Source: Parabacteroides gordonii MS-1 = DSM 23371
GTDB taxonomy: Bacteria; Bacteroidota; Bacteroidia; Bacteroidales; Tannerellaceae
Direction of reading: 5' to 3'
Length of the DNA stretch: 64,000 nt
NCBI RefSeq assembly: GCF_000969825.1
Contig: NZ_KQ033920.1
Span: 124,001-188,000, forward strand
In this document: positions 5,329-48,555 of the stretch, piece after piece
How positions within the stretch are numbered: position 1 is the stretch's first letter
How the letters are laid out: each line of letters begins with the position of its first letter
Notes under the pieces: model-generated
Databases searched by the model: none
What the model was told of the DNA's origin: nothing
Seen by the model: only the letters and a program-made list of their open reading frames with translations
Made by a program: the position numbers and the translations under genes

Positions 5329-5558
5329 AACCAGGGATATTTTTTCTCTAATATGTCATGTACCTGTTCGCTTGTATAAACCCTTCCGGCATCAATATCG
5401 TTTTCTGCTTCGTCTATGCGGGCATTTAATTCATCCAGGGTATATTGTGATTGTAAGAGTTGTTCCGCAGCATCACTTAATCCATAGGACACTATGGGTT
5501 CATTGATCGTGGAGCCGGAAGTTTCTTTCACCTTATGGGAGTAATTCTTTTTTGTCAT
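5319..5558 (-). CDS. Type II antitoxin
   Basis: A 79-residue partner of the downstream toxin. I place the start at ATG 5558 (MTKKNYSHKVKETSGSTINE) because AAAGGAACC, a plausible ribosome site, lies just upstream; an in-frame start 17 codons earlier gives a less typical N-terminus. The centre has a DNA-binding look (SYGLSDAAEQLLQSQYTLDE) and the C-terminal half (RIDEAENDIDAGRVYTSEQV) is the acidic, flexible toxin-binding part common in antitoxins. A -7 box, TACCTTTG on the minus strand, lies at 5597-5604. Confidence 0.82.
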   Translation of the reverse strand: MTKKNYSHKVKETSGSTINEPIVSYGLSDAAEQLLQSQYTLDELNARIDEAENDIDAGRVYTSEQVHDILEKKYPWLCK

Positions 5559-5596
5559 GGATTTGGTTCCTTTCTTTATTTGAATGATTGTTTCCA

Positions 5597-5604
5597 CAAA
5601 GGTA
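5597..5604 (-). promoter_or_regulatory. -7 box for the toxin-antitoxin operon
   Basis: CAAAGGTA on the plus strand is TACCTTTG on the minus strand, a perfect TAnnTTTG, 39 bases upstream of the chosen antitoxin start. This supports the shorter antitoxin, since the longer start at 5609 would precede the promoter. Confidence 0.5.
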
Positions 5605-5655
5605 ATCAATTATATGAATTTAATACTGTAGGGGAAGAAAAACTTTTCCCTTCCC

Positions 5656-8576: not shown

Positions 8577-8596
8577 ACTTGTTTATGTGTTTGACA

Positions 8597-9046
8597 TTAA
8601 TCAGCGAGACGCGGGTAATAAATCCTTGCCGCCACCGGGGCGGACGGTTTGCCCGGCAAGACGGGCGGGAAAGTGAGGGGTGTTTTCATCATGTCATCGT
8701 AGCGGACGATGGTTATTACCGTAAAACGGGAAAAGCGTCTGACTGTTATCAGCTCCTTGTTGACCAATATGTCCAGTAACATACTGATACAACTTATCGA
8801 GATACCTGTTTTTTCTTCGATCGTCCGGTAGGTCGTCACCCATTCACCCCGTTTGCAGGGGACACACAGCTTGCCTATTGTAATCATTCCATCTGCGAAA
8901 TAAGCATGATAGAGCAGGCAGAGATATAATTTGCCGCACAACCGTGTGATAACGTTATTTGAATAGATATCTTCCAGAACGTCATTCGGTACTTTCAGAA
9001 AACCTTTTGAAAGTATCTTAAGTGATTTAATTTTAGACTGTTTCAT
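8597..9046 (-). CDS. Winged-helix DNA-binding protein of a replication operon
   Basis: A 149-residue protein starting MKQSKIKSLKILSKGFLKVP from ATG 9046; an in-frame GTG at 9070 adds eight residues. The middle part (KRGEWVTTYRTIEEKTGISISCISMLLDILVNKELITVRRFSRFTVITI) reads as a winged helix-turn-helix with a recognition helix at TGISISCISML and a beta wing after it. Proteins of this kind stand in front of helicase and primase genes in phages and plasmids, where they load the helicase or repress the operon. It ends 20 bases before the helicase start. The leader upstream carries six iteron-like repeats it might bind (inference). Confidence 0.75.
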   Translation of the reverse strand: MKQSKIKSLKILSKGFLKVPNDVLEDIYSNNVITRLCGKLYLCLLYHAYFADGMITIGKLCVPCKRGEWVTTYRTIEEKTGISISCISMLLDILVNKELITVRRFSRFTVITIVRYDDMMKTPLTFPPVLPGKPSAPVAARIYYPRLAD

Positions 9047-9084
9047 GACTGTATTTTGTTTAGGTTCCACATGCTGTTTATTTC

Positions 9085-9204
9085 CAGAACGATTCTCAGA
9101 ACGAAGTCAGAACGCTGAAAAATGTTTGTAAATATCCGTTGATCAGTCTGTTATACCCGTCTCAAAAAGAGATTCAGAACGATCTTGGAACGATCTTTTG
9201 AACG
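9085..9204. repeat. Two triplets of iteron-like direct repeats
   Basis: CAGAACG starts at 9085, 9097 and 9108. A second triplet follows with CAGAACG at 9175, TGGAACG at 9186 and TTGAACG at 9198. Steps are 12, 11, 11 and 12 bases within triplets, close to one helical turn, so all copies in a triplet face the same side of the helix. The two triplets are 90 bases apart. An AT-rich stretch adjoins the right triplet. Confidence 0.75.
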
Positions 9205-9268
9205 CTCTCTTAATATAATAAGACTTATTTCTCTATAAAGACATAAAAGGGCATCTGCTTTTCGTTTT

Positions 9269-9276
9269 CAAAGATA
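9269..9276 (-). promoter_or_regulatory. -7 box for the winged-helix, helicase and primase operon
   Basis: CAAAGATA on the plus strand is TATCTTTG on the minus strand, a perfect TAnnTTTG. If used, transcription starts near 9262 and the six iteron-like repeats fall in the transcribed leader. No clear -33 element is seen. Confidence 0.4.
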
Positions 9277-9428
9277 CAACGGGGGATAGCTACTCCGTAT
9301 AACCCGATTTTGGAAAGGTAAGAGTTTGGTTGTTAGTTGTGTAGGTTTTGAAAACAGGCTCCTGCGTACAAAAAACGGTAATTATGGTCGGCAAAAAAAG
9401 TAAATAAACACCTCTCCCGGATTAAATA

Positions 9429-9905
9429 CTAGATATTCTTTGTGATATGCTTTGCCAACTCTTCAACCTTTATGTAAATATCCCCATATTCCGGTTGTGG
9501 ATTTTTGAGTCGGTTGACCATTCCTGCCTGGTCGTAGTCCGTATCGAGGATGCAGACCAGTATGCGTGCAAGCCGTTTGATGGTTATATCGCCCAGATAA
9601 CCCGCTTTACGTGTGGCGTTCATCATTTCGATCAGGAATTGCTCCCACACCTTGGTTTGTATGCGCAGATGATCGGGTAGAACCTCACTGCATCCGGAGT
9701 TGGAAGCCAGTTCGCGGGCATAGGTCTCGAAAAATTTATTTTTAAAGGCTAACAGTCTCTTATTCGGATTCTTAAGGTGTAGAAGGTGGTTGGCCGTCTC
9801 GTTTAGTACCTTTTTTCTGTCTGTTTGATGCTTCAGATACTTCTGGAAAAGAGCGAACGTTGGTTTGCTCTCATTGAAAAAACTTATTGTTATTGTCTTT
9901 TTCAT
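9429..9905 (-). CDS. Unknown protein, 158 residues
   Basis: I do not recognise this protein. The start is taken at ATG 9905 (MKKTITISFFNESKPTFALF); the frame extends 21 codons further but without protein-like sequence. It is soluble, basic and mostly helical (KYLKHQTDRKKVLNETANHL, then RLLAFKNKFFETYARELA), with a C-terminal part LARILVCILDTDYDQAGMVN. No signal peptide or membrane segment. It is the last gene of the accessory island and lies to the left of the invertible segment at 10235-10677. The leftward promoter in that segment could transcribe it as assembled (inference). Confidence 0.6.
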   Translation of the reverse strand: MKKTITISFFNESKPTFALFQKYLKHQTDRKKVLNETANHLLHLKNPNKRLLAFKNKFFETYARELASNSGCSEVLPDHLRIQTKVWEQFLIEMMNATRKAGYLGDITIKRLARILVCILDTDYDQAGMVNRLKNPQPEYGDIYIKVEELAKHITKNI

Positions 9906-10011
9906 GATATGTAAAATTGAGGGAGAGGCGTTTGGTATGAATTTGTCATCTGTTGTCGACAGAAGCAAAATGCTCGATTTGATCGTGATAAATAGGTAAT
10001 TAATACTACTG

Positions 10012-10058
10012 TGTCACCAATTTGTCACCAAAGTGATGGGGGCATAGCACTACTATGC
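10012..10058. repeat. TGTCACCAA tandem repeat followed by a small dyad
   Basis: TGTCACCAA occurs at 10012-10020 and 10023-10031, 11 bases apart. Just right of it GCATAG (10042-10047) and CTATGC (10053-10058) form an inverted repeat with a 5-base centre. It lies upstream of the unknown gene starting at 9905, so it may be an operator or a recombination site. Confidence 0.45.
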
Positions 10059-10234
10059 TGAAGAAGTAAAGACCATATATTATTGTTTATAATTTGCGGA
10101 GTGGAGGGGTTGACATACGGAGTGTCAGCCGCAAATATAACTTATTTTTACTATCTGCAACAATAAAAACGAAAGATCGAAAATGACTGTTCGGGCGTTT
10201 TTTCAGCGTTTGAAAAGGGAGGCGGGAAGGGGTG

Positions 10235-10677
10235 AGTCTTGTAAGAACTACGATACTTTTCTATTGCAGGAAAAGATATGCGTATAACTTACTGATTACA
10301 TATTGTTTAAATCATATATATAATTTCACAATAAAAATAGGGTATCAACCAGGTTTCTTTTATTGATATAGATTTAAAGAACAAAGGCTTAATAAGTGAG
10401 GTAAATGACCTTTTCACTCTTGAAAATGTCGGTAAAAGAATCTTACCTCAATGATTAATATTTTATATAACAATGCAAACATAAGTAAAAATTATGAATA
10501 AAACAATACTTGAACTAATTAATTTGTAACTATAATCAATTGAATACCCGACTTTAGCATTATTTGCGACCTCTTTATTTACGTACATTATATAGCATTC
10601 CGTATCTGTGAGTATATGTTAAATGCAGATGGATAAAAGGATCTCTCCTCTCAAATCGACGTAGTTCTTACAAGACT
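10235..10677. promoter_or_regulatory. Candidate invertible promoter segment (inverton) upstream of SusC/SusD 1, OFF as assembled
   Basis: AGTCTTGTAAGAACTACG at 10235-10252 is the exact reverse complement of CGTAGTTCTTACAAGACT at 10660-10677. The 18 bp arms enclose 407 bases with no gene. Inside lies a strong Bacteroidota promoter on the minus strand (separate entry) and no equivalent on the plus strand. As written it faces away from SusC; after inversion it would fall at about 10406-10436 facing SusC. Phase-variable promoters of this build are known in Bacteroidales. No recombinase gene is in the window. Confidence 0.8.
10476..10506 (-). promoter_or_regulatory. Leftward promoter inside inverton 1
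   Basis: On the minus strand, TTG (10506-10504), 20 bases, then TATGTTTG (10483-10476), a perfect TAnnTTTG with ideal spacing. As assembled it points left toward the unknown gene at 9905, away from SusC. Confidence 0.65.
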
Positions 10678-10736
10678 ATGTTAAAAGACAAGCAATATAA
10701 ATTTTCTATGTTAATCTGAATTAAACAAGTGTGTCT

Positions 10737-31794: not shown

Positions 31795-34700
31795 ATGACA
31801 TTAAACATGAATAGAGAGAATTTCCGGGGAATGAAAAACTGGAATGTGGCCTTCGCCCTTCTTTTTTTATTCTCTGCCGCTCCATCGAAAGCGGACACAG
31901 GAAAAGGTTCGATTGCCTTGAATCCTACTATTAAAGAAAGTGCCGGCATGCCGGTCAGCCAACAAAGTGAACGTATCATTAAAGGTGTTGTAAAAGATGC
32001 TACAGGTGAAACGGTGATTGGAGCCAACGTTTCTGTTGTTGGTTCAACTAATGGTACAGTAACCGATATAGACGGCAACTTCTCATTGAAAGTACCGGCA
32101 GGGGCTACCCTGAAAATATCCTTTATCGGTTATAAAGATGTAAACGTAAAAGTCACCAACCAACAATCGCTGAATATCGTTCTGGAAGACGATTCACAAG
32201 CATTGGACGAAGTGGTAGTCGTTGGTTTCGGTTCACAGAAAAGAGTGAACTTAACCGGAGCTGTAAGTACAGTAAAGGCAGAAGCACTCGAAGCACGTCC
32301 TGTAACCAATGTTAGCCAAGCATTACAGGGTGTTGTACCGGGTTTGAACTTTAGTGTGCCCATTGGCGGTGGAGAGTTAGATAATAATATGAAGTTCAAT
32401 ATCCGTGGTGTCGGATCAATCGGCTCTGGTTCAAAAGCCGAACCGTTAGTATTGATTGATGGTATGGAGGGGGATATGAATGCTCTTAACCCTCAGGATA
32501 TTGAAAACATATCAGTATTGAAGGATGCGGCGGCTTCATCTATTTACGGGTCGCGTGCTCCGTTCGGTGTTATCTTGATTACAACTAAGTCTGGTAAAGA
32601 AGGACGTGTAAGTGTAAATTACAATAATAATATCCGTTTTTCCGATCCGACTAAGGTTCCTAATATGATGAACTCTTATGACTTTGCCCGATATTTTAAT
32701 GAAGCATCCGGTAATGGCGGTGGTAGCGGTATATTCGGACAGGAAGTAATGGATCGTATTATCGCTTACCAAAAGGGAGAAATTACAGATGGAACTGTTG
32801 CTAATAACAGTGGTAACTGGCAGGAATATGGCGGTGCTAATGCCAATACAGACTGGTTTCAGGAACATTATCGCCATTGGACTCCTTCCCATGAACATAA
32901 TATTAGTGTAAATGGCGGTTCTGAGAAAATTAAATACATGTTGTCTGGCAACTTTATGGATGAACGTGGTTTGTTGAAACATTCGGATGATAGTTTTAAG
33001 CGCTATTCAATGAATGCTAAAATCAATGCTACACTGACAAAGTTCTTGACTGTGAATTACACTTCACGTTGGATCCGTAACGATTATGACAAATCCTATT
33101 ATCAGAACGGATTATTCTTCCATAATCTGGCTCGTCGCTGGCCGAGTATTCCAGTGACTGATCCGAATGGACACTATATGGAAGGTAGTGAAATTATCCA
33201 GTTGGAAGATGGCGGTCGAGACAAGACGCAAAAGGACGATTTCACTCAGCAACTTCAGATGATAATAGAGCCTGTCAAAAACTGGCGTATTACGGTAGAA
33301 GGAAACATGAAGACGGTCGAAACATTCAGAAATTATAATGTTCCTTTGGTTTACAGGTATAACGATAGAAATGAACCTGTTCCTATGAAATTTGACGAAG
33401 GCCATTATGCAGGTGTTACCGAAGCTTATGAATCAGCAAACAAACGTAATTTTTATACGGTCAATGCGTTTACCGATTATACTTACGAAACAAAAAGCGG
33501 TCATTATATTAAAGGTATGGTTGGTTTTAACTCAGAGTTAAATCGTTACAGAGGCATTTCTGCCTCACGAAAAGGTTTGATTACGGGTGATGTTCCTTCT
33601 TTGCCGACAGCTGTAGACGATATGCAGAATAACGGTGAAATAAATGAATGGGCTACTGCTGGTTTCTTCGGACGTATCAACTACAACTATAAGGAACGCT
33701 ATTTGGCTGAAGTGAATTTGCGTTACGACGGAACTTCCCGCTTTATCGGCGACCAGCGCTGGGGAGTTTTCCCTTCGTTCTCTTTAGGTTGGAATGTTGC
33801 CAAAGAAGATTTCTGGGGTGATTTGAACCAATATGTAAGTACATTGAAGCTGAGAGGATCCTGGGGTGAATTAGGTAATCAGAATACTACCAGTTTGTAT
33901 CCTTTCTATCCGAATATGGACATCAAAACCAAAGACGGAGAATGGTTGGTGAACGGACAAAAACCGACAACAGCTGTCATGCCGGGTATGGTCAGTGATA
34001 TGTTGACCTGGGAACGGGTTCGTTCGTGGAACGTTGGCGTCGATTTTGGTGCATTAAATAATCGTTTGACCGGATCGTTTGATTACTTCAACCGTAAAAC
34101 ACTCGATATGGTAGGTCCGGCTCCTGAACTTCCTGTTATTCTAGGAGCTGATGTTCCTAAGATCAATAATGCAGATATGGAATCTTACGGTTTTGAACTG
34201 GAAGTATCCTGGAGAGATCGCATTGGTAATGTAAATTACGGTATCAAGGGTGTATTATCGGATGCTCGCCAGAAAGTGACACGTTATCCGAATGCAACAG
34301 ACGATTTTTCTAACTGGTATGCCGGAAAGATGAGTGGTGAAATTTGGGGATATACCACTATTGGTATTGCTAAATCACAGCAGGAAATGGATGCCTATCT
34401 GGCTACTTTACCTAATGGCGGACAAGATGCGATAGGATCCGGTTGGGGAGCTGGTGATATTATGTATGCCGACTTGAATGGCGATGGAAAGATTGATGGT
34501 GGTGCTGGTTTGCTGTCAGACAGCGGTGATAAGTCCATTATCGGAAATAGTACACCTCGTTATAATTATGGTATTACATTGGATGCAGAATGGAAAGGTA
34601 TAGATATCAGCATGTTTTTCCAGGGCATAGGCAAACGTGAAGTGGAAGTGGGTGGTCCTTATTTCTGGGGAGCTGTAAGTAATGAATGGCAGTCTGCCGG

Positions 34701-35115
34701 TTTCGACGAACATTGGGATTTCTTCCGTGAAGAAGGTAACTCGTTGGGTGCAAATCTAGATGCTTATTATCCCAAGCCCATATTTAATAGTAATAGTTTG
34801 ATTGCAGATCGTAACCATCAGACACAAACCCGTTATTTGCAAAACGGAGCTTATCTTCGTATGAAGAATATCCAATTGGGTTATACATTCCCGAAAAAAT
34901 GGATGAATACTATAAAGATTCAATCTTTGCGTGTGTATGTTTCCGGTGATAACTTGCTGACATTTACTAAAATGGCTAAAATGTTCGACCCCGAAACGGT
35001 GGATGGACGTGAATGGTGGGACACCGATACAAATCAATCTTCTAAAACCGGTAACAACGGTAAGGTATATCCGCTATCAAAGGTTATTTCTTTTGGTATA
35101 AACGTTAACTTCTAA
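31795..35115 (+). CDS. SusC/RagA-type TonB-dependent outer-membrane transporter 3
   Basis: A 1106-residue importer. The signal peptide is VAFALLFLFSAAPSKA after a longer basic start (MTLNMNRENFRGMKNW); ATG 31807 is an alternative start. An extra 40 residues precede the regulatory-like domain (IIKGVVKDATGETVIGANVS). DEVVVVGFGSQKRVNLTGAV leads into the plug (FNIRGVGSIGSG, PLVLIDGMEGDM, NPQDIENISVLKDAAASSIY) and the barrel. It is a different subfamily from SusC 1 and 2: the VVGFG and NLTGAV form matches the classic SusC/RagA group. SusD 3 follows by 13 bases. Confidence 0.95.
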   Translation: MTLNMNRENFRGMKNWNVAFALLFLFSAAPSKADTGKGSIALNPTIKESAGMPVSQQSERIIKGVVKDATGETVIGANVSVVGSTNGTVTDIDGNFSLKVPAGATLKISFIGYKDVNVKVTNQQSLNIVLEDDSQALDEVVVVGFGSQKRVNLTGAVSTVKAEALEARPVTNVSQALQGVVPGLNFSVPIGGGELDNNMKFNIRGVGSIGSGSKAEPLVLIDGMEGDMNALNPQDIENISVLKDAAASSIYGSRAPFGVILITTKSGKEGRVSVNYNNNIRFSDPTKVPNMMNSYDFARYFNEASGNGGGSGIFGQEVMDRIIAYQKGEITDGTVANNSGNWQEYGGANANTDWFQEHYRHWTPSHEHNISVNGGSEKIKYMLSGNFMDERGLLKHSDDSFKRYSMNAKINATLTKFLTVNYTSRWIRNDYDKSYYQNGLFFHNLARRWPSIPVTDPNGHYMEGSEIIQLEDGGRDKTQKDDFTQQLQMIIEPVKNWRITVEGNMKTVETFRNYNVPLVYRYNDRNEPVPMKFDEGHYAGVTEAYESANKRNFYTVNAFTDYTYETKSGHYIKGMVGFNSELNRYRGISASRKGLITGDVPSLPTAVDDMQNNGEINEWATAGFFGRINYNYKERYLAEVNLRYDGTSRFIGDQRWGVFPSFSLGWNVAKEDFWGDLNQYVSTLKLRGSWGELGNQNTTSLYPFYPNMDIKTKDGEWLVNGQKPTTAVMPGMVSDMLTWERVRSWNVGVDFGALNNRLTGSFDYFNRKTLDMVGPAPELPVILGADVPKINNADMESYGFELEVSWRDRIGNVNYGIKGVLSDARQKVTRYPNATDDFSNWYAGKMSGEIWGYTTIGIAKSQQEMDAYLATLPNGGQDAIGSGWGAGDIMYADLNGDGKIDGGAGLLSDSGDKSIIGNSTPRYNYGITLDAEWKGIDISMFFQGIGKREVEVGGPYFWGAVSNEWQSAGFDEHWDFFREEGNSLGANLDAYYPKPIFNSNSLIADRNHQTQTRYLQNGAYLRMKNIQLGYTFPKKWMNTIKIQSLRVYVSGDNLLTFTKMAKMFDPETVDGREWWDTDTNQSSKTGNNGKVYPLSKVISFGINVNF

Positions 35116-35128
35116 ATAGAATATAGAG

Positions 35129-37174
35129 ATGAAATATATAAAGAATAATATCATAATTGCGTGTATGGCGGTCGGTATGTTGTCGTTGGGAGCATGTAAT
35201 GACTTCCTTGACAGAGAACCGCTTGATAAAGTAACAGCAGAATCTTATTTGAAAAGTGAAGGTGATCTGGCTGCATTCGCTATCAAGCAATACGAAATAC
35301 TCCCAAATGTAGTCAATCAGTATAGCGTAGGACCTATTGGATTAGGTGATGACCATACGGATAACCAGGCGAAAGCCAATGGTGAGTTGAAATATTGGCA
35401 ACCCGGTCAATGGCGTGTAAGAGAAAAAGAAGAAAAAGAAGAATTGAAGGATCAGGAGTGGAGCTTTTACCGGATCAGAGCTTTTAACTTTTTCTTCCAA
35501 CAGGTTTTACCGAAATATGAAGCTGGGGAGATTCAAGGAGTGAAAGCTAATATTGACCAGTATATCGGTGAAGTTTATTTTCTGAGAGCTTACGAATATT
35601 TCAAGCGTTTGAAAATGTTCGGCGATTTTCCAATCGTAACCGATGTGTTGGTTGATGAAAGGGAAATGTTGGTGGCTGCCAGCCAGCGCCAGCCGCGTAA
35701 TAAAGTGGCACGTTTTATCCTTGAAGATTTGGACAAGGCTATCGGTCTGTTGAGCAACGATATAGGTAATAAAAACCGTATCACTCGCGATGCTGCATTA
35801 TTATTCAAGTCGAGAGTGGCTCTGTATGAAGCCAGCTTCGAAACTTATCATCGCGGAACTCCCCGTGTTCCTGGAGAAGCCGGATGGCCAGGTGCTATGA
35901 TGGAGTATAATAGTGGTTTTTCAATCGATCTGAATCAGGAAATAACCTTCTTTACCGATCAGGCAATGGCAGCTGCTAAAGAGGTGGCCGATAAGATTAC
36001 GCTAACTTCCAATTCAGGTCAGAATACTCCCAATACAGGTCAGACTGCAGGTTGGAATCCTTATTTCGAAATGTTCGCCGCAATGGACATGAGTAGCTAT
36101 AGCGAAGTGATTATGTGGCATAGCTTTGATGCAGGAGTAAATGTGGGTAATGCTATTATGAAATATGCATTGACAAGCGGTAGTAATACCGGATTGACCC
36201 GTGGATTTGTGGAATCTTTCTTAATGAAAAACGGTTTGCCTATTTATGCAAGTGGATCAAATTACTCAAAGATCGATTCGACATTAGATTTGGTGAAGAA
36301 AGACCGCGACGGCCGTTTGCAGTTGTTTCTGGCCAGTGAACATTCTATCCGTTCTGTATATACGGATGCAGATACTAGTAAATATCTGGGAGTACCTAAT
36401 ATAATTGATATAACAGAGCAGCGTAAAGTTACAGGATATACAGCTCTGAAAGGAGTGAACTATTCGTATGATGCCGACAATTTGCCGAGCGGAACATCTG
36501 AAGAAAGTGGTGCAATCATTTTCCGTGGAGTAGAAGCTTATTTGAATTATATCGAAGCATCTTGCCTGAAAAATGGTGGTAATTCGATTGACGGAACAGC
36601 ACGTAGCTATTGGAAAGCGATACGCGAACGTGCCGGCGTTGATACGGATATCGACAAGACGATTGCTGCGACCAATTTGAGCATGGAGAACGACTGGGGT
36701 GTCTATTCAGGTGGTGTAGCTGTCTCTTCCATCATGTATAATATTCGTCGTGAACGCCGTTGCGAATTTATGTGGGAAGGTATGCGTTGGGATGACTTGA
36801 TCCGTTGGCGTGCGCTTGACCAGGTGAAGGACTATATTATCGAAGGATGTAATTTCTGGGATAATATGTATAAAGCAGAAAGATTCTTTGACAAAGCTGC
36901 CAACGAATCTAAATTGGTTCCGGCAGGTACTCCTGGTAAGGTTGCCAATGTGTCGAGCAAAGAAAAGAGCGGAAAATACCTTCGCCCTTATCAGGTTGTA
37001 GAAAACAACAATGGTCTCTACAACGGTTACAACTGGATGAAGGCTAATTATCTGCATCCGATCTGTATTACACACTTGCGCATTTCTGCTAATGATCAGA
37101 ATAATGTTACAACATCACCGATCTATCAGAATCCTTACTGGCCGATCGAACCGAATCAGTCGCAATTAGAATAA
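35129..37174 (+). CDS. SusD/RagB-type surface nutrient-binding lipoprotein 3
   Basis: A 681-residue surface lipoprotein, larger than the other two SusD proteins here. The lipobox LSLGAC places the lipid on C23. The N-terminal RagB-type half has DFLDREPLDKVTAESYLKSE and IGEVYFLRAYEYFKRLKMFG; the C-terminal half has AYLNYIEASCLKNGGN and RRERRCEFMWEGMRWDDLIR, which is the hallmark of the family. It pairs with SusC 3. A strong hairpin follows at 37211-37245. The ligand is unknown, and no enzyme gene adjoins. Confidence 0.94.
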   Translation: MKYIKNNIIIACMAVGMLSLGACNDFLDREPLDKVTAESYLKSEGDLAAFAIKQYEILPNVVNQYSVGPIGLGDDHTDNQAKANGELKYWQPGQWRVREKEEKEELKDQEWSFYRIRAFNFFFQQVLPKYEAGEIQGVKANIDQYIGEVYFLRAYEYFKRLKMFGDFPIVTDVLVDEREMLVAASQRQPRNKVARFILEDLDKAIGLLSNDIGNKNRITRDAALLFKSRVALYEASFETYHRGTPRVPGEAGWPGAMMEYNSGFSIDLNQEITFFTDQAMAAAKEVADKITLTSNSGQNTPNTGQTAGWNPYFEMFAAMDMSSYSEVIMWHSFDAGVNVGNAIMKYALTSGSNTGLTRGFVESFLMKNGLPIYASGSNYSKIDSTLDLVKKDRDGRLQLFLASEHSIRSVYTDADTSKYLGVPNIIDITEQRKVTGYTALKGVNYSYDADNLPSGTSEESGAIIFRGVEAYLNYIEASCLKNGGNSIDGTARSYWKAIRERAGVDTDIDKTIAATNLSMENDWGVYSGGVAVSSIMYNIRRERRCEFMWEGMRWDDLIRWRALDQVKDYIIEGCNFWDNMYKAERFFDKAANESKLVPAGTPGKVANVSSKEKSGKYLRPYQVVENNNGLYNGYNWMKANYLHPICITHLRISANDQNNVTTSPIYQNPYWPIEPNQSQLE

Positions 37175-37210
37175 TTCCATAGGTTTAGTCATCAACATAA
37201 AGTGATGTGG

Positions 37211-37245
37211 AAAGGTTTCCTCCTCTGTGAAGAGGGGGAGCCTTT
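37211..37245 (+). terminator. Hairpin after SusD 3
   Basis: AAAGG (37211-37215) pairs with CCTTT (37241-37245), and the inner ten bases to 37226 pair with 37231-37240 with three wobbles, a bulge at 37216 and a GTGA loop. The tail is A-rich rather than T-rich, so it may stabilise RNA instead of ending transcription. Confidence 0.6.
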
Positions 37246-37319
37246 AAAAAATACCTATTGAACTATATGATATGATTTTGTTTAATTATTCAGTATCAAA
37301 CTTTTAAAAATTGAATGTT

Positions 37320-37757
37320 ATGAAAAAGACAAAAGTTTTAATGTTATTACTTTCTTTCTTTGTATGTGGTGTTTGCTTTGCAACTCCGCAGAATATGGAA
37401 GAAGTAACGGATGGTAATAATTCCAGTGTAGCAAGTACAACTTATAAAGTTAGTTTTATTGAGAGATCTACAACTGGACAAGATGTTTCAGTAGCAGGAC
37501 CTTTTTATATGGCTTCGTATAAAGATGATACCGGTTCACATGATTTTAACCATGATGGAATTGCAGATGTAGGGGCTAATGGGGTTGTATCGTTTTATAC
37601 ATATAAGGAGTCTAGTCAGACTGTTGTTCAAATTCTTGTCGATAATGGTCGTGTAACCTATGTACTTGGTACTTCTGGCGGTACTTATACACTTCCTCCG
37701 ATTACATCGAATACAACGATCACTATTATTTATCAATTAGGTAGCGGAGGAAATTGA
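37320..37757 (+). CDS. Exported protein of unknown function, 145 residues
   Basis: I do not recognise this protein. The start is ATG 37320 (MKKTKVLMLLLSFFVCGVCF); a TTG three codons earlier is less likely. A signal peptide ends near CFA. The mature part is all-beta and Ser/Thr/Gly-rich: TTYKVSFIERSTTGQDVSVA, VVSFYTYKESSQTVVQILVD and TYVLGTSGGTYTLPPITSNT. A segment DFNHDGIADVG resembles a calcium-binding loop of EF-hand or dockerin type, although only one copy is present. It follows SusD 3 after a hairpin. Confidence 0.65.
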   Translation: MKKTKVLMLLLSFFVCGVCFATPQNMEEVTDGNNSSVASTTYKVSFIERSTTGQDVSVAGPFYMASYKDDTGSHDFNHDGIADVGANGVVSFYTYKESSQTVVQILVDNGRVTYVLGTSGGTYTLPPITSNTTITIIYQLGSGGN

Positions 37758-37790
37758 TTTTTTACTCTTGGTTTATGTTCCACATTCTTT

Positions 37791-37810
37791 CGACATTGGT
37801 TCAAATGTCG
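37791..37810. promoter_or_regulatory. Short dyad before the second HU-like gene
   Basis: CGACATT (37791-37797) pairs with AATGTCG (37804-37810) around a 6-base centre, 64 bases before the start codon. It could be an operator or a weak terminator of the upstream gene. Confidence 0.4.
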
Positions 37811-37874
37811 TGCTTGAATGCCTTCTCATTTTGAAATACTATGTATTTTAGTTATAACTTTAAATTTATTTATC

Positions 37875-38324
37875 ATGGCAATATTAATTAGAGCAATCCA
37901 GCGTGCTAATCCACGGGATAAGGATGCTCCGAAGAAATGGTATGCCGTTCAGAACTCCACCGGATTGGTCCCGGAAACGAAAGTGGCTGAACTCATTTCC
38001 GACGAGACGACTCTGAATCCGTCGGAAGCGTTGATGTCTATCCGCCAACTCCGGAAGATAATCGAACGTTTGATGGCAGACGGGCATAGTGTAAAACTCG
38101 GTGACTGGGGTACGTTTTCTCCATCCGTTAACAGCAAGGGCAAGGATAAGAAAGAAGATCTGAAGGCTACGGATATTAATGCTGTAAATATTAATTTCCA
38201 GCCCGGTGAAGAATTAAAGGCTGCTATGCAAAAAGTGGACTTTATATGGATCGACAAACTAATTGAAGGTAAGACGAATACTGGCGGCGGTTCAGGAGAA
38301 GATGATCGTCCGGTTATTGAATAA
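37875..38324 (+). CDS. Second HU-like DNA-binding protein with the same acidic tail
   Basis: A 149-residue HU/IHF-fold protein from ATG 37875 (MAILIRAIQRANPRDKDAPK). The core reads KVAELISDETTLNPSEALMS, IRQLRKIIERLMADGHSVKL and GDWGTFSPSVNSKGKDKKED, with the phylum's HU-like pattern. The tail is TNTGGGSGEDDRPVIE and its last nine residues are identical to those of the HU-like protein at 4430-4885, although the bodies differ widely. No helicase or primase adjoins this copy. It ends with a strong terminator and is followed by the 22 bp repeat array. Confidence 0.85.
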   Translation: MAILIRAIQRANPRDKDAPKKWYAVQNSTGLVPETKVAELISDETTLNPSEALMSIRQLRKIIERLMADGHSVKLGDWGTFSPSVNSKGKDKKEDLKATDINAVNINFQPGEELKAAMQKVDFIWIDKLIEGKTNTGGGSGEDDRPVIE

Positions 38325-38350
38325 TACTTATTTTCTGAATGAAAAAGACT

Positions 38351-38381
38351 CCTCTTCGGGTTTTCCGGAGGGGATTTTTTT
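38351..38381 (+). terminator. Intrinsic terminator of the second HU-like gene
   Basis: CCTCTTCGG (38351-38359) pairs with CCGGAGGGG (38365-38373), with a GTTTT loop and a run of seven T after one A. Confidence 0.85.
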
Positions 38382-38397
38382 ATCTCTTTTAGTAAGA

Positions 38398-38617
38398 TGA
38401 AGAAGTCATTTCCGAAACATGAAGAAACAAACTCCGAAACTTGAAGAAGTTTGTTCTGAAACATGAAGAAGTTTTTTTCGGGACTTGAAGAAGTCGGCTT
38501 TGTGAGATGAAGAAGTTTGCTTCGTGAGATGAAGAAGTTTGCTTCGTGAGATGAAGAGGTCGGCGCTGTGAGATGAAGAAGTCAGCACCATGTGATGAAG
38601 GACTTATATAAAGAAGA
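38398..38617. repeat. Ten-unit 22 bp tandem repeat array
   Basis: The motif TGAAG begins at 38398, 38420, 38442, 38464, 38486, 38508, 38530, 38552, 38574 and 38596, always 22 bases apart. The best-kept units (38508-38551) read TGAAGAAGTTTGCTTCGTGA plus GA. Outer units drift in their second half while TGAAGAAG stays. There are no spacers, so it is not a CRISPR array. Confidence 0.9.
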
Positions 38618-38646
38618 GCCGGAAGTAACATTTACTCCCGGCTCTT
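38614..38646 (-). terminator. Terminator of the beta-galactosidase gene
   Basis: AAGAGCCGG (38614-38622) pairs with CCGGCTCTT (38638-38646), with an inner AGTAA/TTACT stem. It lies 24 bases past the beta-galactosidase stop on the minus strand. Confidence 0.75.
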
Positions 38647-38669
38647 CCGGTATCTGTCGGAATATAGGA

Positions 38670-41789
<3,120 letters not shown>

Positions 41790-41802
41790 TTAATATGTTT
41801 CA

Positions 41803-44118
41803 TTATTTCACTATTATTTCATCAATATAGACCCAGGTACCCTGTCCGGGACGGGTATGGCCTTCGGGGCATTTGCCGGGGTTTTTCAGGTCTACTTTCA
41901 GGTAACGACCGGAAGTCTTCAGGTTGTCGAATAGCTGGTCTTCGATGCGGATGCCTTCGCGGAATATCTGTTCCGGTGTGAAGCTGCGTTCTGCTATCGA
42001 CGTGAATGTCTTGTTATCGTTGGAGACGGACACCGTTATTTTCGCCGGGATATGCGCCCCCATTCCGTAGTTGGTGATGCAGCCGAGTGTTATCTGTTGT
42101 ATGTCCGTTTCTTTTCCCAGGTCTACCGTGAAGCCGGCATCCGTATCGTACCAGCCGCACCATTCGAAATCAGACTGTTTGTCGCTGCCACGGAGTCCGT
42201 TTGTCAGGCGGTAGGTTTGTCCGTTGCTGTCCGTTACCGGGCGTGCGGTCGCTTTGTTCCAGTGCAGCGGTAAGGTCAGTGTTTGGCCTTTCTGTTCGCC
42301 GTTGGCAAAGGTGGCGGCTTTGATCGTCAGGTCGTTTGTGATAACCAGTGAATCCTGGTAGAGGGCAGAGGTGGCCTGCGGTTCGCTGCCGTCTGTCGTG
42401 TAGCGCACTTCCATGTCCGGACGGATGCAGGTGAGGGCTACTTTCAGGGTGTCGTTGTCTCCCGTCACCAGGTGGTCGAGGTTGAACATCGAACGGGCAT
42501 AATTCACTCCCATATAGTCGTAATGGCAAGCCAGTTTATCCAACCGTTTGAGGAAGCCGGGCCAGTCTTTGGCGTCTTTTCCCGACCAGGCGATTTCTGC
42601 CAAGGCAGCCAGGCGGGGGAAGAGAAGGTATTCGACATCGTTGGCCGAGGTACAGAATTCAGTCCACATACAGCCCTGTACGCCCATCAGGTTTTCAGCC
42701 ACCTTCGGATCCCAGTCCGGTTGTACCGGCTCGTATTTATAAACGTTTTCCAACGTGTTGTTGCCGAAATAAGTACGCGGTTCGAACCATTGCGGGCCCT
42801 GGTAACGGATCAGGTAGAGTACGCGGGCAGGTGTCATGATGAAACGGTGTCCCAGTTGTCCGGCCTTGTATCCGGCGGTACCGAGTCCCTGCCAGCCGAG
42901 GATGATCGCGTCGTCGGGTATTTTGCTGTTGGTTAGTTCGTCCCAGCCGATCACCTGCCGGCCTTTACTTTTCACGTAGTCGGCCATGCGGTTCATAAAA
43001 TACCCCTGTAACTCTTCGATGTCCGTAAAGCCTTCCGCTTTCATACGGGCCTGGCAGAGCGGGCATATTTTCCAGTATCTCTTGGATGCTTCGTCGCCTC
43101 CCAAATTGATGTATTGCGAGGGGAAGAGAGCCATCACTTCGTCGAGTACATCCTGAAGGAAAGAGAAAACCTTGTCGTTGCCGGCGCAGTAGACGATCTC
43201 AGCCGCATGCCCTCCCATACCGGGTATGACGCGGATAGGGTCTTTCACCACCGGGCAGGCCAGTTCGGGGAAAGCCGCCAGCGATGAGTTGGTATGTGCC
43301 GGCATCTCTATTTCGGGGATGATCTCGACTTGCCGTGCATGGGCGTAGGCGATGATCTCTTTCATATCTTCCTGTGTGTAGAAACCGCCTACAGGTGTCG
43401 GTTCGCCGGCTTTTGCGTTTTTGCGTTGGGAGAAGTCCTTTTCGCGTTCCACACGCCAGGCACCTATTTCCGTCAGCTGCGGATATTTCTTTATTTCCAG
43501 ACGCCATCCGTTGTCGTCCACCAGATGCAGGTGGAGTTTGTTCAACTTCAACATTGACATGCAATCGATAATTTTGACCACATTCTCTTTGGGGATAAAA
43601 CAACGGGACACGTCCAACAGCAGGCCGCGATATGGGAAACGAGGGCTGTCCTGAAGGGTCAGTGCCGGTACGTTCCATTGAACATTGAGTACCTGTTCCT
43701 TACTTTCTATAGTGGAGGGTAGAAGTTGGCGGATAGACTGTGTGGCATAGAAAAAACCGCCGTTGTCTGCTGCTTTAACAGAGATCAGGGAAGGGGTTAT
43801 TTCCATTTTGTAGCTTTCGGCCGCCAGCGTCGTATCTGTGGAGAAAACGATAGAGGCGGAAGTGTCGGATGCCCCTATTCTTACAGTAGGAGTGAATCCT
43901 GCGGAGGTCGTGAACAAGTTGGCTAACAATTCGGCAACAGGTTGTTGTTCCTGGTTCTCCACCTGGATCACGGTGTGTTTGCTGAATGCGAAATGGCCGT
44001 TGCCGGATGTCTGCTGTTCCGGTTGTGGGATGATGTTTATTTCTGACGAACCGGAGGTTGTGCATCCGGTAGCAAGCCAGATAAAAAAGAAAAAGAATAA
44101 GAGCTTGTCTTTTTTCAT
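41803..44118 (-). CDS. Glycoside hydrolase family 20 beta-N-acetylhexosaminidase lipoprotein
   Basis: A 771-residue lipoprotein enzyme; the lipobox is WLATGC with C19 lipidated. A GH20 N-terminal domain (about 25-155) precedes the TIM barrel (FPYRGLLLDVSRCFIPKENV, LHLHLVDDNGWRLEIKKYPQ). The catalytic pair is D342-E343 in NLGGDEASKRYW. A chitobiase-like C-terminal domain (VRYTTDGSEPQATSALYQDS) and a discoidin-like domain (about 650-771) follow. It cleaves terminal GlcNAc or GalNAc and heads the operon with the GH2 enzyme. It is divergent from the hybrid regulator and likely under its control. Its own -7 box and a triple repeat lie upstream. Confidence 0.94.
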   Translation of the reverse strand: MKKDKLLFFFFFIWLATGCTTSGSSEINIIPQPEQQTSGNGHFAFSKHTVIQVENQEQQPVAELLANLFTTSAGFTPTVRIGASDTSASIVFSTDTTLAAESYKMEITPSLISVKAADNGGFFYATQSIRQLLPSTIESKEQVLNVQWNVPALTLQDSPRFPYRGLLLDVSRCFIPKENVVKIIDCMSMLKLNKLHLHLVDDNGWRLEIKKYPQLTEIGAWRVEREKDFSQRKNAKAGEPTPVGGFYTQEDMKEIIAYAHARQVEIIPEIEMPAHTNSSLAAFPELACPVVKDPIRVIPGMGGHAAEIVYCAGNDKVFSFLQDVLDEVMALFPSQYINLGGDEASKRYWKICPLCQARMKAEGFTDIEELQGYFMNRMADYVKSKGRQVIGWDELTNSKIPDDAIILGWQGLGTAGYKAGQLGHRFIMTPARVLYLIRYQGPQWFEPRTYFGNNTLENVYKYEPVQPDWDPKVAENLMGVQGCMWTEFCTSANDVEYLLFPRLAALAEIAWSGKDAKDWPGFLKRLDKLACHYDYMGVNYARSMFNLDHLVTGDNDTLKVALTCIRPDMEVRYTTDGSEPQATSALYQDSLVITNDLTIKAATFANGEQKGQTLTLPLHWNKATARPVTDSNGQTYRLTNGLRGSDKQSDFEWCGWYDTDAGFTVDLGKETDIQQITLGCITNYGMGAHIPAKITVSVSNDNKTFTSIAERSFTPEQIFREGIRIEDQLFDNLKTSGRYLKVDLKNPGKCPEGHTRPGQGTWVYIDEIIVK

Positions 44119-44171
44119 TTGATATATTGTTGTGTTAACATTTCCTTGTTATGTTTCCTGGTATCTAGCTG

Positions 44172-44179
44172 CAAATTTA
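44172..44179 (-). promoter_or_regulatory. -7 box for the GH20-GH2 operon
   Basis: CAAATTTA on the plus strand is TAAATTTG on the minus strand, a perfect TAnnTTTG 53 bases before the GH20 start. No -33 element; a triple repeat occupies that place, as at activator-dependent promoters. Confidence 0.55.
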
Positions 44180-44208
44180 GAGGTATGCGCTGGTGGAGAT
44201 GTCCGGTA

Positions 44209-44235
44209 TTGTACAAAAATGTTCAATATTTGTCC
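44209..44235 (-). promoter_or_regulatory. Triple direct repeat, candidate activator site of the GH20-GH2 operon
   Basis: TTGTAC at 44209, ATGTTC at 44219 and TTGTCC at 44230, at steps of 10 and 11 bases. The cluster sits 30-56 bases upstream of the GH20 -7 box on one helical face, where an AraC-type HTCS output domain would be expected to bind. Confidence 0.45.
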
Positions 44236-44284
44236 AGAATAAGGGGATAAGCTTGTTTTTTAGGCGTTTCAGGGTGGGTGTTTA

Positions 44285-44596
44285 GTTCCGCAAGAACTCA
44301 TGCCATTTGATAATAGACAAAGATATAAAAAGATTTATTTACACAAAGAGACTTTTCTTAGTCTTTATAAGACAGGCTATTATTTCATGTCTCTATTCCG
44401 TTGTAATTAAGAATACCTTAGTACGGAATTTGTACAACAACTAATACCCCCCCCTGTTTTATGCTCTTAAATAGGGGGTAATGGTTGGAAATTTATGGTT
44501 GAATATCTACCTGTAAACTACCGGACGGTTCTTAACCCATTTTAATGTATTAATATTCAGATAGCTAACTATAAATGGCATGAGTTCTTGCGGAAC
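44285..44596. promoter_or_regulatory. Candidate invertible promoter segment (inverton) between the glycosidase operon and the HTCS gene
   Basis: The 24 bases at 44285-44308 (GTTCCGCAAGAAC...CCATTT) are the exact reverse complement of 44573-44596. The arms enclose 264 bases without a gene and with one good promoter, on the minus strand (separate entry). As assembled it faces the GH20-GH2 operon. Inverted, its -7 box would lie at 44556-44563, giving a leader of about 58 bases to the HTCS start codon. The arms share a 13 bp core with those of the segment at 10235-10677. Confidence 0.85.
44318..44347 (-). promoter_or_regulatory. Leftward promoter inside inverton 2
   Basis: On the minus strand, TTTG (44347-44344), 18 bases, then TATCTTTG (44325-44318), a perfect TAnnTTTG with slightly short spacing. 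As assembled it points toward GH20. Confidence 0.6.
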
Positions 44597-44628
44597 GATG
44601 TTATTAACGTACTAAACAAGCCTTTAAG

Positions 44629-47600
44629 ATGTTAGCTATAACGAAATATATTTATTTGTGTTTTCTGTCTTTTTATTGTTTAACCGTACTACAAGCTGCA
44701 CCGGAGTACCATTTCAAGCAGATTTCACTCAGGGAAGGATTATCAGAGTCTATGGTTAAATGTGTTTTGACAGACCATAAAGGAATAATCTGGATTGGTA
44801 CCCATTTGGGGTTGAATAGCTTTGACCGGGAGAAAATAAAGACTTACTATCATGATAAAAAAGATCCCTGTTCTATCCCTGATAATAATATTCATTTTAT
44901 GGTAGAAGATTCTTTACTTAACCTATGGGTTTCGACAGGACAGGGGATGGCCTTGTATGACCGTGAAAAAGACATCTTCCACCCGGTACTCTTCAATGAA
45001 AATCAATTAAAGATCCAGGCTTATGTGTCTGTAAAAGACGGACTCTTGCTTTTTGGGAAAGGTGAGTTTTATAAATATAACTATTCCGACAGGCAAATCG
45101 TCTCCTTGCCGATCCATGCTACAGAGGATGCCTGTATCTGGTTTGAAAAAGCGTGTGGCTATCATCAGTCGGACAACCTGATTCTGTTGGCATCCCGTTG
45201 GAACGGCTTGTGGGAGTACAATGACAGGACAGGAGCTCTGCGGCGTTCCTCTTTGGTAAAAGACTATCAGATTGCTGCACTGCTGATTGATTCTTCAGAT
45301 AATCTATGGCTGTCACCCTACGGAAAAGGGCTTGTCGGGTACGACCGCACTAAGAAAGAGATTTGCCGCCTGCATGCTTCCCGGGATTTATCCAATGGGA
45401 TCATTCTGGATATAAAAGAGCGGGAAGGCAAACTCTGGCTGGCTACAGATGGAGGCGGTATCAATATATATGATAAGGAGAATGGAACCGTAGATGTTAT
45501 TAATCATGTTCCCGGCAAGTCTTCTTCTCTGCCTGTAAATTCTTTCTGGTGCCTGTATAATGATCCCGATAATAATATGTGGGCGGGTAGTATCAGAGGC
45601 GGCCTGATCGGAATGAAGGAGATCTATATGAGGACTTATCAGGATGTATTCCTTAATTCCGCTTATGGTTTGAGTGAGAAAGCCGTTAGCAGTATGTACG
45701 AGGATCTGGATAATATGATCTGGTTGGGTACGGATGGGGGAGGTATGAACCGTCTCGATCCTCATACCGGGTTGTTCCGCCATTACCCGTCCACCTATCC
45801 GTCGAAAATTGTTTCCATAATCGATTATAATGCGACGGAACTGCTCTATTCTGGCTTCGGAGAGGGGTTGTTCCTACTTAATAAGCAGACCGGAAAGGTG
45901 CGGGAATATCCGGTAATTAATACAGATAAACATAACACCTTGTTCAAGTCAGGTAAATCGGTACATCTGTTCCGTCTGGATGAAATGCGTTTTTACCTGT
46001 TGGCAGACAGTGTTTATCTGTACGACCAGTCTGCCCGTAAACTGACGACGGTGGATGCGGAGGTGGGTGGAGCGACGTTCTCTTCCCTCAATCTGATAAC
46101 CAGGGAGAAGAACGTTAGTTATCTGTGGGGAGAAAATGACCTGTTCGTATTGGATCATACGAGGAATAACATACGGGTGCTCCATTCTTTTGCAGACTCG
46201 ATAGGAGTGATTGCCGCAGCCACCAAAGGTCAGGGCGAAGATATATGGATCGGGACTTCGGTAGGATTGTACCGCTTTCATCCGGAAAAGAAAACGTTGA
46301 GCCCTATCGAGAACGACCGTTTCCTCGGTACTACCTCGCTTGGCTTCGACAAATCCGGCCGTTTATGGATCGGAACGCATAACGGGCTATACGCTTATAT
46401 GCCGGATGACGGTAAAATCATGATGTTCGGCGAGTCTGACGGTGTGTATGCGAACGAATATATTGCTAAACCTCCGCTGATAACCGGAGACGGGGATATC
46501 TATATGGCCGGTATGATGGGACTGGTACATATCGAGAACGATCTCCCTTTTCCGGAAAATCCCGATCCCGTAATAGGTCTGCTGGATGTGATACTGAACG
46601 GGGCATCTGCCGGTTCGGCGGCAAGCCGGGATGGGAATATGATCTCTGTCCCCTGGAATTATACCTCGTTGATAGCTAAGGTGATTGTCAGGGAGAATGA
46701 CCTGATGCGGAAGAAGCTGTTCCGCTATTATATAAAAGGTACGCAGGAAGAGATGGTGGAGTCGTCCAACCATACGATCGCGTTTCATGCCTTGTCTGTC
46801 GGTAAATACGAAATATGGGTGTCCTGCAGTAAGAAGAACGGGGATTGGAGCGTACCCGTCAAGCTCCTGTCTGTGGAGGTGATGCCGCCCTGGTGGCGTA
46901 CAAACTGGTTCCTGTTCTGTTGCGTATTGGTGGCGGTGGCCGGCCTGTCCGTCGTTTTCTGGCTTGTTATGAAGAGACAGGAGACAAGGATGATATGGGC
47001 GATGAAGGAACATGAACAGAGGACATATGAAGAAAAGATCCGTTTCCTTATCAACCTGAACCATGAGCTTCGTACGCCCCTGACCCTGATCTACTCGCCG
47101 CTTAAACGGCTCCTCAATTCGGGAGAGATCGACAACGCCGCCCATAGCAGGCAACTGGAAGATATTCTGAAACAGACCCGCCGCGTGAAAGACATCATCG
47201 ATATGGTACTGGATGTCCGTAAAATGGAGACCGGGACGGAAACGCTTTCCATCGGATCGCATAAACTGAATGATTGGATACGTGAGGTGGCAGATGCATT
47301 CAAAGAGGAGTTGCTTCATAAGAATATTAACCTGGAATATCAGTTGGACGGTTCGGTCGGGGAAGTCCCCTTTGATGCGGCAAAATGTGAGATAGTCCTG
47401 TCGAACCTGATAATGAATGCGTTGAAATTCAGTAATGCGAACACTTGTATTACCGTATCTTCCCATTTGGAAGAGGATTATGTGCGTGTCTCCGTTTCCG
47501 ACCAGGGTATCGGGCTGGATAATGTCGATATAACCCGGCTGTTTGAACGCTTCTACCAGGGTACCCACGACAGGCACGGGACAGGGATCGGTTTGTCTTA

Positions 47601-48555
47601 TGCCCGCTTATTGGTGGAAATGCACGGGGGACGCATCGGGGCGGCAAACAATGCCGGGAAGGGAGCCACATTCTTTTATGAATTACCCTTGAATAATACG
47701 ACGACATCGATCGTTGCCAGGCCTTACCTGAATGAGCTGTTGGTTTCTTCCGGAGAAAAAAACGATACGGCTGTCGATTTCTCCGTCAGGAAATACTCCG
47801 TCCTGGTCGTGGAGGACGAGCCGGAACTGCGGAATTATCTGAAAGTCTCCCTGAAAGAGTCTTTCCGGCAGGTATATGTGGCGGGGGATGGTGTCGAGGG
47901 GTTCGATATGGCTATCCGCCATTTGCCGGATATCATCATCAGTGATGTCATGATGCCCCGTATGGATGGTTTTGAGTTTTGCCGGCTGTTGAAGAGTAAC
48001 CTGGAGGTCAGCCATATCCCGGTCATCCTGCTGACAGCCCGTACCGATCAGGCCAGTACGGTACAGGGATATAAGGAAGGGGCGGACTTTTATCTGCCGA
48101 AACCGTTCGACCTGGAGTTCCTTCTTGCCATCGTCCGCAACCTTTTGAAGAACAGGGAAGCTGTCAAACTACGTTATAAAGAGGGTGGGGAGACTGTCTC
48201 GCCTAAAGAAGATACGATCAGCAACGCCGATGAACAGTTTGTGAAAAAACTGAACGACCTGATCAGGGAACAGCTGGAAAACCCGGAGCTGGATGTGAAC
48301 TTTGTAGCTACGCAAATGGCCATGAGCCGGGCCTCGCTATACAATAAGCTGAAAGCACTGACGGGTGTCAGCATCGGCGATTATATCAATAAATTCAGAA
48401 TGGCCCGTGTGATGGAACTGTTGGCCGATAAGGAACTGAGCCTTCTGGAGATATCCGAAAAGGCCGGGTTTACCAACCAGCGCTATTTCAGTACGGTATT
48501 TAAACAGGCCTATGGGACTACACCGTCTAAATACCGTCAGGAGCATTTTTCCTGA
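44629..48555 (+). CDS. Hybrid two-component system regulator (HTCS)
   Basis: A 1308-residue one-protein signalling system. A signal segment (residues 1-25) precedes about 14 periplasmic propeller repeats (ISLREGLSESMVKCVLTDHK, GIIWIGTHLGLNSFDREKIK, later GLYRFHPEKK). A Y_Y_Y-like domain is at about 650-750 and a membrane segment at about 757-780. The kinase core has H812 in LNHELRTPLTLIYSPLK and GTGIGLSYARLLVEMHGG. The receiver has D1106 in IISDVMMPRMDG and a lysine near 1156. A C-terminal AraC-type helix-turn-helix ends GFTNQRYFSTVFKQAYGTTP. It probably senses a breakdown product of the glycan cut by the adjacent GH20 and GH2 enzymes. The upstream segment looks invertible. Confidence 0.96.
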   Translation: MLAITKYIYLCFLSFYCLTVLQAAPEYHFKQISLREGLSESMVKCVLTDHKGIIWIGTHLGLNSFDREKIKTYYHDKKDPCSIPDNNIHFMVEDSLLNLWVSTGQGMALYDREKDIFHPVLFNENQLKIQAYVSVKDGLLLFGKGEFYKYNYSDRQIVSLPIHATEDACIWFEKACGYHQSDNLILLASRWNGLWEYNDRTGALRRSSLVKDYQIAALLIDSSDNLWLSPYGKGLVGYDRTKKEICRLHASRDLSNGIILDIKEREGKLWLATDGGGINIYDKENGTVDVINHVPGKSSSLPVNSFWCLYNDPDNNMWAGSIRGGLIGMKEIYMRTYQDVFLNSAYGLSEKAVSSMYEDLDNMIWLGTDGGGMNRLDPHTGLFRHYPSTYPSKIVSIIDYNATELLYSGFGEGLFLLNKQTGKVREYPVINTDKHNTLFKSGKSVHLFRLDEMRFYLLADSVYLYDQSARKLTTVDAEVGGATFSSLNLITREKNVSYLWGENDLFVLDHTRNNIRVLHSFADSIGVIAAATKGQGEDIWIGTSVGLYRFHPEKKTLSPIENDRFLGTTSLGFDKSGRLWIGTHNGLYAYMPDDGKIMMFGESDGVYANEYIAKPPLITGDGDIYMAGMMGLVHIENDLPFPENPDPVIGLLDVILNGASAGSAASRDGNMISVPWNYTSLIAKVIVRENDLMRKKLFRYYIKGTQEEMVESSNHTIAFHALSVGKYEIWVSCSKKNGDWSVPVKLLSVEVMPPWWRTNWFLFCCVLVAVAGLSVVFWLVMKRQETRMIWAMKEHEQRTYEEKIRFLINLNHELRTPLTLIYSPLKRLLNSGEIDNAAHSRQLEDILKQTRRVKDIIDMVLDVRKMETGTETLSIGSHKLNDWIREVADAFKEELLHKNINLEYQLDGSVGEVPFDAAKCEIVLSNLIMNALKFSNANTCITVSSHLEEDYVRVSVSDQGIGLDNVDITRLFERFYQGTHDRHGTGIGLSYARLLVEMHGGRIGAANNAGKGATFFYELPLNNTTTSIVARPYLNELLVSSGEKNDTAVDFSVRKYSVLVVEDEPELRNYLKVSLKESFRQVYVAGDGVEGFDMAIRHLPDIIISDVMMPRMDGFEFCRLLKSNLEVSHIPVILLTARTDQASTVQGYKEGADFYLPKPFDLEFLLAIVRNLLKNREAVKLRYKEGGETVSPKEDTISNADEQFVKKLNDLIREQLENPELDVNFVATQMAMSRASLYNKLKALTGVSIGDYINKFRMARVMELLADKELSLLEISEKAGFTNQRYFSTVFKQAYGTTPSKYRQEHFS

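Follow-up and report, generated by a model that had tools for sequence, protein, structure and literature searches.

Invertible promoters occur beside their own tyrosine recombinase at capsule/UpxY loci. Tsr0667 is likewise a tyrosine recombinase, with the consensus AGTYYYN4GDACT, and the Tsr0667-controlled invertible regions of Bacteroides fragilis were reportedly described by Nakayama-Imaohji in 2009. As master invertase, Tsr0667 controls three clusters of SusC/SusD genes and nine further regions in B. fragilis (PMC4747536), and in the same species the single global invertase Mpi serves many capsule promoters at distant places (PMC4747536, PMC12632263). Neither the motif AGTYYYN4GDACT nor the gene name BF0667 was found in the text of the literature searched, and the accessible part of PMC4747536 showed no motif. 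In general, the portions of the literature covered treat the invertible promoters of gut Bacteroidales mainly in connection with capsules and SusC/SusD proteins. The mainly open-access literature searched (including PMC11892184, PMC10939037, PMC12632263, PMC7366714, PMC13114119, PMC3090145, PMC4747536 and PMC11852207) gave no account of an HTCS and its own target operon separated by an invertible promoter, and the term 'two-component' is absent from the main text of PMC11892184 and PMC10939037.

In the window analysed here, a stretch of 64,000 nucleotides of Parabacteroides gordonii MS-1, two 24-bp inverted repeats (44285-44308 and 44573-44596) are 100% complementary and enclose 264 nt (44309-44572), so that a short intergenic segment is flanked by inverted repeats as in an inverton. 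The left arm (44284-44308, plus strand) contains the 15-bp dyad AGTTC-CGCAA-GAACT at 44284-44298, and the right arm (44573-44597, minus strand) the dyad CGTTC-CGCAA-GAACT with C as its outer base. Allowing up to three mismatches, the arm 20-mer has two matches within the window against none in 100 shuffles, and the two arms are the only places of the 24-mer in the 6.79-Mb genome; a search for the arm in viral contigs gave 0 matches. To the left, 166 nt from the arm to the ATG, lies the gene for a GH20 beta-hexosaminidase-type enzyme (41803-44118, minus strand, start at 44118), which forms an operon with that for a GH2 beta-galactosidase-type enzyme (38670-41777, minus strand). To the right, the ATG of an HTCS gene (44629-48555, plus strand) follows the arm after 32 nt. 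Its product combines a Reg_prop propeller sensor, Y_Y_Y, the HisKA and HATPase domains of a histidine kinase, a receiver and an AraC-type HTH in one chain, which identifies it as an HTCS; the reading frame is uninterrupted throughout, and the 32 bp of fixed upstream DNA show no promoter.

We called promoters by the Bacteroidota consensus TAnnTTTG/TTTG, as quoted in PMC7366714, because a generic E. coli-type sigma-70 scan of the region returned six promoters where 5.0 were expected, i.e. no excess over shuffles. The segment holds a single exact TAnnTTTG -7 box, TATCTTTG, on the minus strand (44325-44318), which sits 9 nt inside the left arm and has a TTTG 18 nt upstream. As assembled it faces GH20, and if flipped the HTCS; judged from the sequence, the segment therefore carries an outward consensus promoter as an inverton does. 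On the plus strand, the segment holds no exact TAnnTTTG and none with a single mismatch and a TTG/TTTG upstream of it. After inversion (x -> 88881-x) the TATCTTTG box would lie at 44556-44563, 65 nt before the HTCS ATG at 44629, and a start about 7 nt beyond the box would leave about 58 nt to this codon. What the earlier note had read from this locus, namely exact 24 bp inverted repeats around 264 bases, one good minus-strand promoter facing GH20-GH2 and a distance of about 58 bases to the HTCS start in the flipped state, is thus confirmed. The promoter-bearing left part of the segment is conserved in two related species and its middle has diverged; the related species also partly share a block near 44540-44558, and a non-consensus HTCS promoter may also lie inside the segment.

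The arms belong to a site class with many further copies in the genome. AGTTCN5GAACT occurs at 54 genome sites versus 2 for the reversed control, and at 45 and 46 sites (controls 2 and 2) in the related genomes G012 and G037; many other members of the taxonomic family (121 genomes) lie near or under their control count. Using the 50 of the 54 sites that were listed, we found 18 neighbouring pairs no more than 1.5 kb apart where 0.55 would be expected, and all but one of the pairs (17/18) have inverted-matching spacers, with 15 different spacers among the 17. The window and 20 fetched stretches yielded 19 invertons (L240 and L246 were dropped, having no pair under the criterion); distances to genes derive from mechanical first-start ORFs and are approximate. 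An outward TAnnTTTG lies 5-40 nt inside an arm in 14 of the 19 invertons, versus 1.1 on average (at most 5) in 300 interior resamples, and the remaining five have no near-arm consensus promoter. According to Pfam, the products of the adjoining genes include SusC-type receptors, HU-like DNA-binding proteins with DUF4469, ECF sigma factors, HTCS and, in L248, a receiver-AraC protein. A shared site at many loci with SusC prominent corresponds to a Tsr0667-type regulon, and the site may be identical with the Tsr0667 consensus. The main larger result of our analysis is this site family, which takes in regulators.

In 7/19 members of the site family, the inverton has a gene directed towards it on each side, at a distance of up to 250 bp. 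Where a gene lies within 50 bp and a near-arm promoter is present, the promoter points away from the close gene in six of seven invertons; the seventh (an ECF sigma factor, L239) has one box toward the gene and another away from it, and an eighth close-gene inverton (L236) has no near-arm box. The HTCS-GH20 inverton fits this rule, with the HTCS off as assembled.

Two ECF sigma factor genes adjoin AGTTCN5GAACT invertons (L239, L241). Five HU-like/DUF4469 genes (L232, L233, L234, L247, L249) are each found about 50 bp or less from an arm, and in 5/5 the near-arm promoter is directed away from them. In L247, the promoter of an AGTTCN5GAACT inverton faces an adjacent second HTCS gene (5082-10640, 1415 aa), with the HU-like gene on the opposite side. 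Within the window, a second exact 18-bp inverted repeat (AGTCTTGTAAGAACTACG; 10235-10252 and 10660-10677, 407 nt apart) resembles the same site class and is located just ahead of a SusC gene starting near 10731; we take the Tsr0667 consensus to fit both this repeat and the HTCS-GH20 arm. In other genera of the taxonomic family, G038 and G059 hold 81 and 61 AGTTCN5GAACT sites (controls 2 and 6), and a site pair with the spacer of the HTCS-GH20 inverton occurs 1.55 kb apart in G040 (L299, 4802 and 6353).

At the level of the locus, the arm (up to three mismatches) is present in 3/38 genomes of the genus, namely P. gordonii MS-1 (G000), G012 and G037, and a looser form retrieved again only these three among 123 genomes of the taxonomic family. 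G012 and G037 have the segment flanked by the same gene pair, their arms being perfect over 19 and 18 bp and the promoter conserved; the orientation is the same in all three species, and the opposite one was found in 0/3. HTCS orthologues with 57-58% identity and the same upstream genes exist in G011 and G013. The SusC-SusD-GH2-GH20 block together with the inverton (window 31795-44600) is absent between the corresponding genes of these two genomes. For the comparison of fixed boxes we used four related HTCS genes: the G013 orthologue, which is without PUL and inverton and has several candidate TAnnTTTG boxes in its fixed upstream DNA, and three paralogues of about 46% identity (L124, L125, L132), which lie beside a GH20-like gene and have a fixed candidate TATTTTTG shortly before the ATG. 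Given the candidate fixed boxes of these inverton-free relatives, the inverton seems to have taken the place of a fixed HTCS promoter. G021, whose HTCS relative is broken and located on a short contig and which has no arm match, was left out of the comparison, and at least 80 loci from a wider HTCS scan of the genome contigs were not used, being distant relatives (best identity 36% among the matches listed). A repeat in L149 was rejected as an HTCS upstream element, as it lies on the 3' side of that HTCS.

GH20 also has a -7 box of its own, TAAATTTG (TAATTTTG in relatives; 44172-44179, minus strand), with no TTTG at the -33 place, and this promoter is probably activator-dependent. A 31-bp block (44209-44239, plus strand) is identical in the three species and contains three TGTnC repeats at 10-11 bp spacing; we regard it as a candidate HTCS operator, although the evidence for a putative activation of GH20-GH2 by the HTCS is suggestive only. 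Within the window, the GH20 copy is the only one at up to three mismatches, and a shorter form of the block has matches at chance level only. No terminator was seen in the GH20 leader, which folds no more stably than shuffles (z -0.27).

Taken at sequence level, we consider it probable that the locus is a phase switch for the HTCS, built on an invertible promoter of the genome-wide family and off as assembled. The invertible-promoter part of this reading is well supported by the site family, the promoter placement and the joint change of the spacers discussed below; present-day flipping of the segment we infer. In such a switch, a recombinase would bring the two AGTTC-N5-GAACT sites together, and strand exchange within the 5-bp spacer would invert the 264 bp. 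In the assembled state, transcription from the promoter would run left for about 190 nt before reaching GH20-GH2, and the HTCS would be left with its 32 bp of fixed upstream DNA and no visible promoter. In the flipped state, the same promoter would serve the HTCS, with about 58 nt of leader, and the HTCS could activate GH20-GH2 via the conserved operator-like block and the weak own promoter of the operon. The earlier note had suggested that one inversion trades constitutive input into the glycosidases for expression of the sensor. Its sensor half is supported by the 32-bp gap and the candidate fixed boxes of the relatives; meaningful leftward constitutive transcription of GH20-GH2, and its size, we can only infer, with no terminator in the leader on one side and the six of seven promoters pointing away on the other.

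Two versions of this HTCS phase switch have to be weighed. The switch may well serve the HTCS only, a version we place just short of probable: the HTCS would be off in the assembled orientation, and leftward transcription would be without effect. Facing GH20 may mean no more than this because six of the seven close-gene invertons with a near-arm promoter point away from the close gene, next to L239 with a box each way and the boxless L236. However, the far-side gene at this locus is the likely target of the HTCS, and nothing was seen that would stop transcription. In the second version, the one of the earlier note, which is possible and which we put forward tentatively, both outputs are selected, sensor-independent GH20-GH2 in one orientation and the sensor plus inducible GH20-GH2 in the other. 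The promoter and its GH20-ward orientation are kept in 3/3 species, the leader shows no terminator, and two-sided layouts are common, as seen from the 7/19 members with facing genes. On the other hand, the far-side genes elsewhere (Cons_hypoth698 in L249, DUF3575 in L234) were judged no obvious partners of the near gene, so that a promoter pointing at a far-side gene may be incidental, and GH20 retains its own -7 box and operator-like block. Since GH20 has these two elements, a constitutive/inducible toggle of GH20-GH2 is plausible but unproven; the switch would be two-way if leftward transcription matters.

In a comparison with G037 anchored by the flanks, 12 of the 19 invertons have an orthologue in 20 fetched G037 stretches (7/19 lack a two-sided orthologue). 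The spacer differs in 5/12, and in all five, including the HTCS-GH20 inverton, the same change is found in both arms, for which a simple Poisson estimate gives a chance of about 4e-7; a spacer change in one arm only does not occur among the 12. Half-site changes in single arms were seen in three cases, counting the outer base of the HTCS-GH20 right arm. Such a combination of spacer co-change and single-arm half-site changes is expected if the spacer is where strands are exchanged, and it points indirectly to recombination between the arms, or selection for recombining ability, since the species split. The orientation is the same in G000 and G037 for 11/11 orthologous invertons with matching interior (p about 0.001 versus a coin-flip; L236 is left out, as it has no interior match). 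Since three of three species and 11 of 11 invertons agree, switching would be biased or flipping rare in the assembled material. Such a bias has a precedent in a polysaccharide promoter that is reported to be almost only ON in broth-grown cells and was found in both orientations in five of six mice (PMC13114119). The uniform orientation would also suit a relic or locked inverton which has lost flipping and whose promoter now is a fixed GH20 promoter; we consider this unlikely, as both arms acquired the identical spacer change once the species had separated, the repeats have stayed exact, and the HTCS has a fully open frame without another visible promoter. Finally, the short palindrome in each arm could suggest a transcription terminator or protein-binding palindromes rather than recombination sites, which is very improbable in view of the 264-nt spacing, the genome-wide inverted pairing, the pair-specific spacers and the promoters just inside the arms.

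For the HTCS phase switch and its relatives, probably one recombinase acts in trans on the whole family, presumably a single enzyme of the tyrosine type. The 5-bp matching spacer between the half-sites suits a tyrosine recombinase better, in which the HTCS-GH20 inverton would differ from Mpi-controlled promoters. The genome contains 66 matches to the tyrosine recombinase profile PF00589 and four to PF00239, and XerC/XerD-like genes are present. Two candidates were rejected, as neither L155:4353-5321 nor L158:4500-5450 has a close intact counterpart in G012 or G037, despite the 45 and 46 sites there. The nearest tyrosine recombinase (L153, 26 kb off) was also rejected, because its neighbouring inverted repeat has another sequence. 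At this locus (L153 6475-8359), a TATCTTTG box enclosed by a 27-bp inverted repeat lies behind the recombinase gene and ahead of a run of ORFs. A small tyrosine recombinase near a CTTATTT...AAATAAG-type repeat pair enclosing TAnnTTTG was found in 12/21 stretches scanned, and no CTTATTT-type segment in the 11 stretches L174-L184.

Compared with the described systems, the HTCS-GH20 inverton shares with capsule/UpxY-type invertible promoters a TAnnTTTG promoter between inverted repeats, but the recombinase-adjacent CTTATTT-type segments in P. gordonii differ from it, as it has another site and no recombinase nearby. With the Mpi system, as described in PMC4747536 and PMC12632263, it would have in common that a single global invertase serves many distant promoters. 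The HTCS lies beside its likely glycosidase targets as in HTCS-controlled polysaccharide utilisation loci; in contrast to the fixed boxes upstream of the four related HTCS genes, the only visible box here is on the invertible segment. The Tsr0667 system is similar in its many scattered invertible regions, its one master invertase and the prominence of SusC/SusD; it differs in that Tsr0667 controls SusC/SusD clusters and other regions, whereas the neighbours of the segment here are a sensor/regulator and the operon that it probably controls. We regard the HTCS-GH20 inverton as Tsr0667-like in kind, a kind that is already known.

For P. gordonii, the AGTTCN5GAACT motif provides a direct list of testable loci in the genome. 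That a global recombinase phase-varies regulators as well as transporters, with one inversion toggling GH20-GH2 between sensor-independent and sensor-dependent expression, is a doubtful but conceivable extension of our reading. A sugar-sensor promoter on such a segment would make glycan sensing itself heritable and reversible, and therefore inducible and non-inducible (or constitutive) cells could coexist in one clonal population. If the toggle is true, whether foraging is constitutive or inducible would be a heritable decision taken by one promoter.
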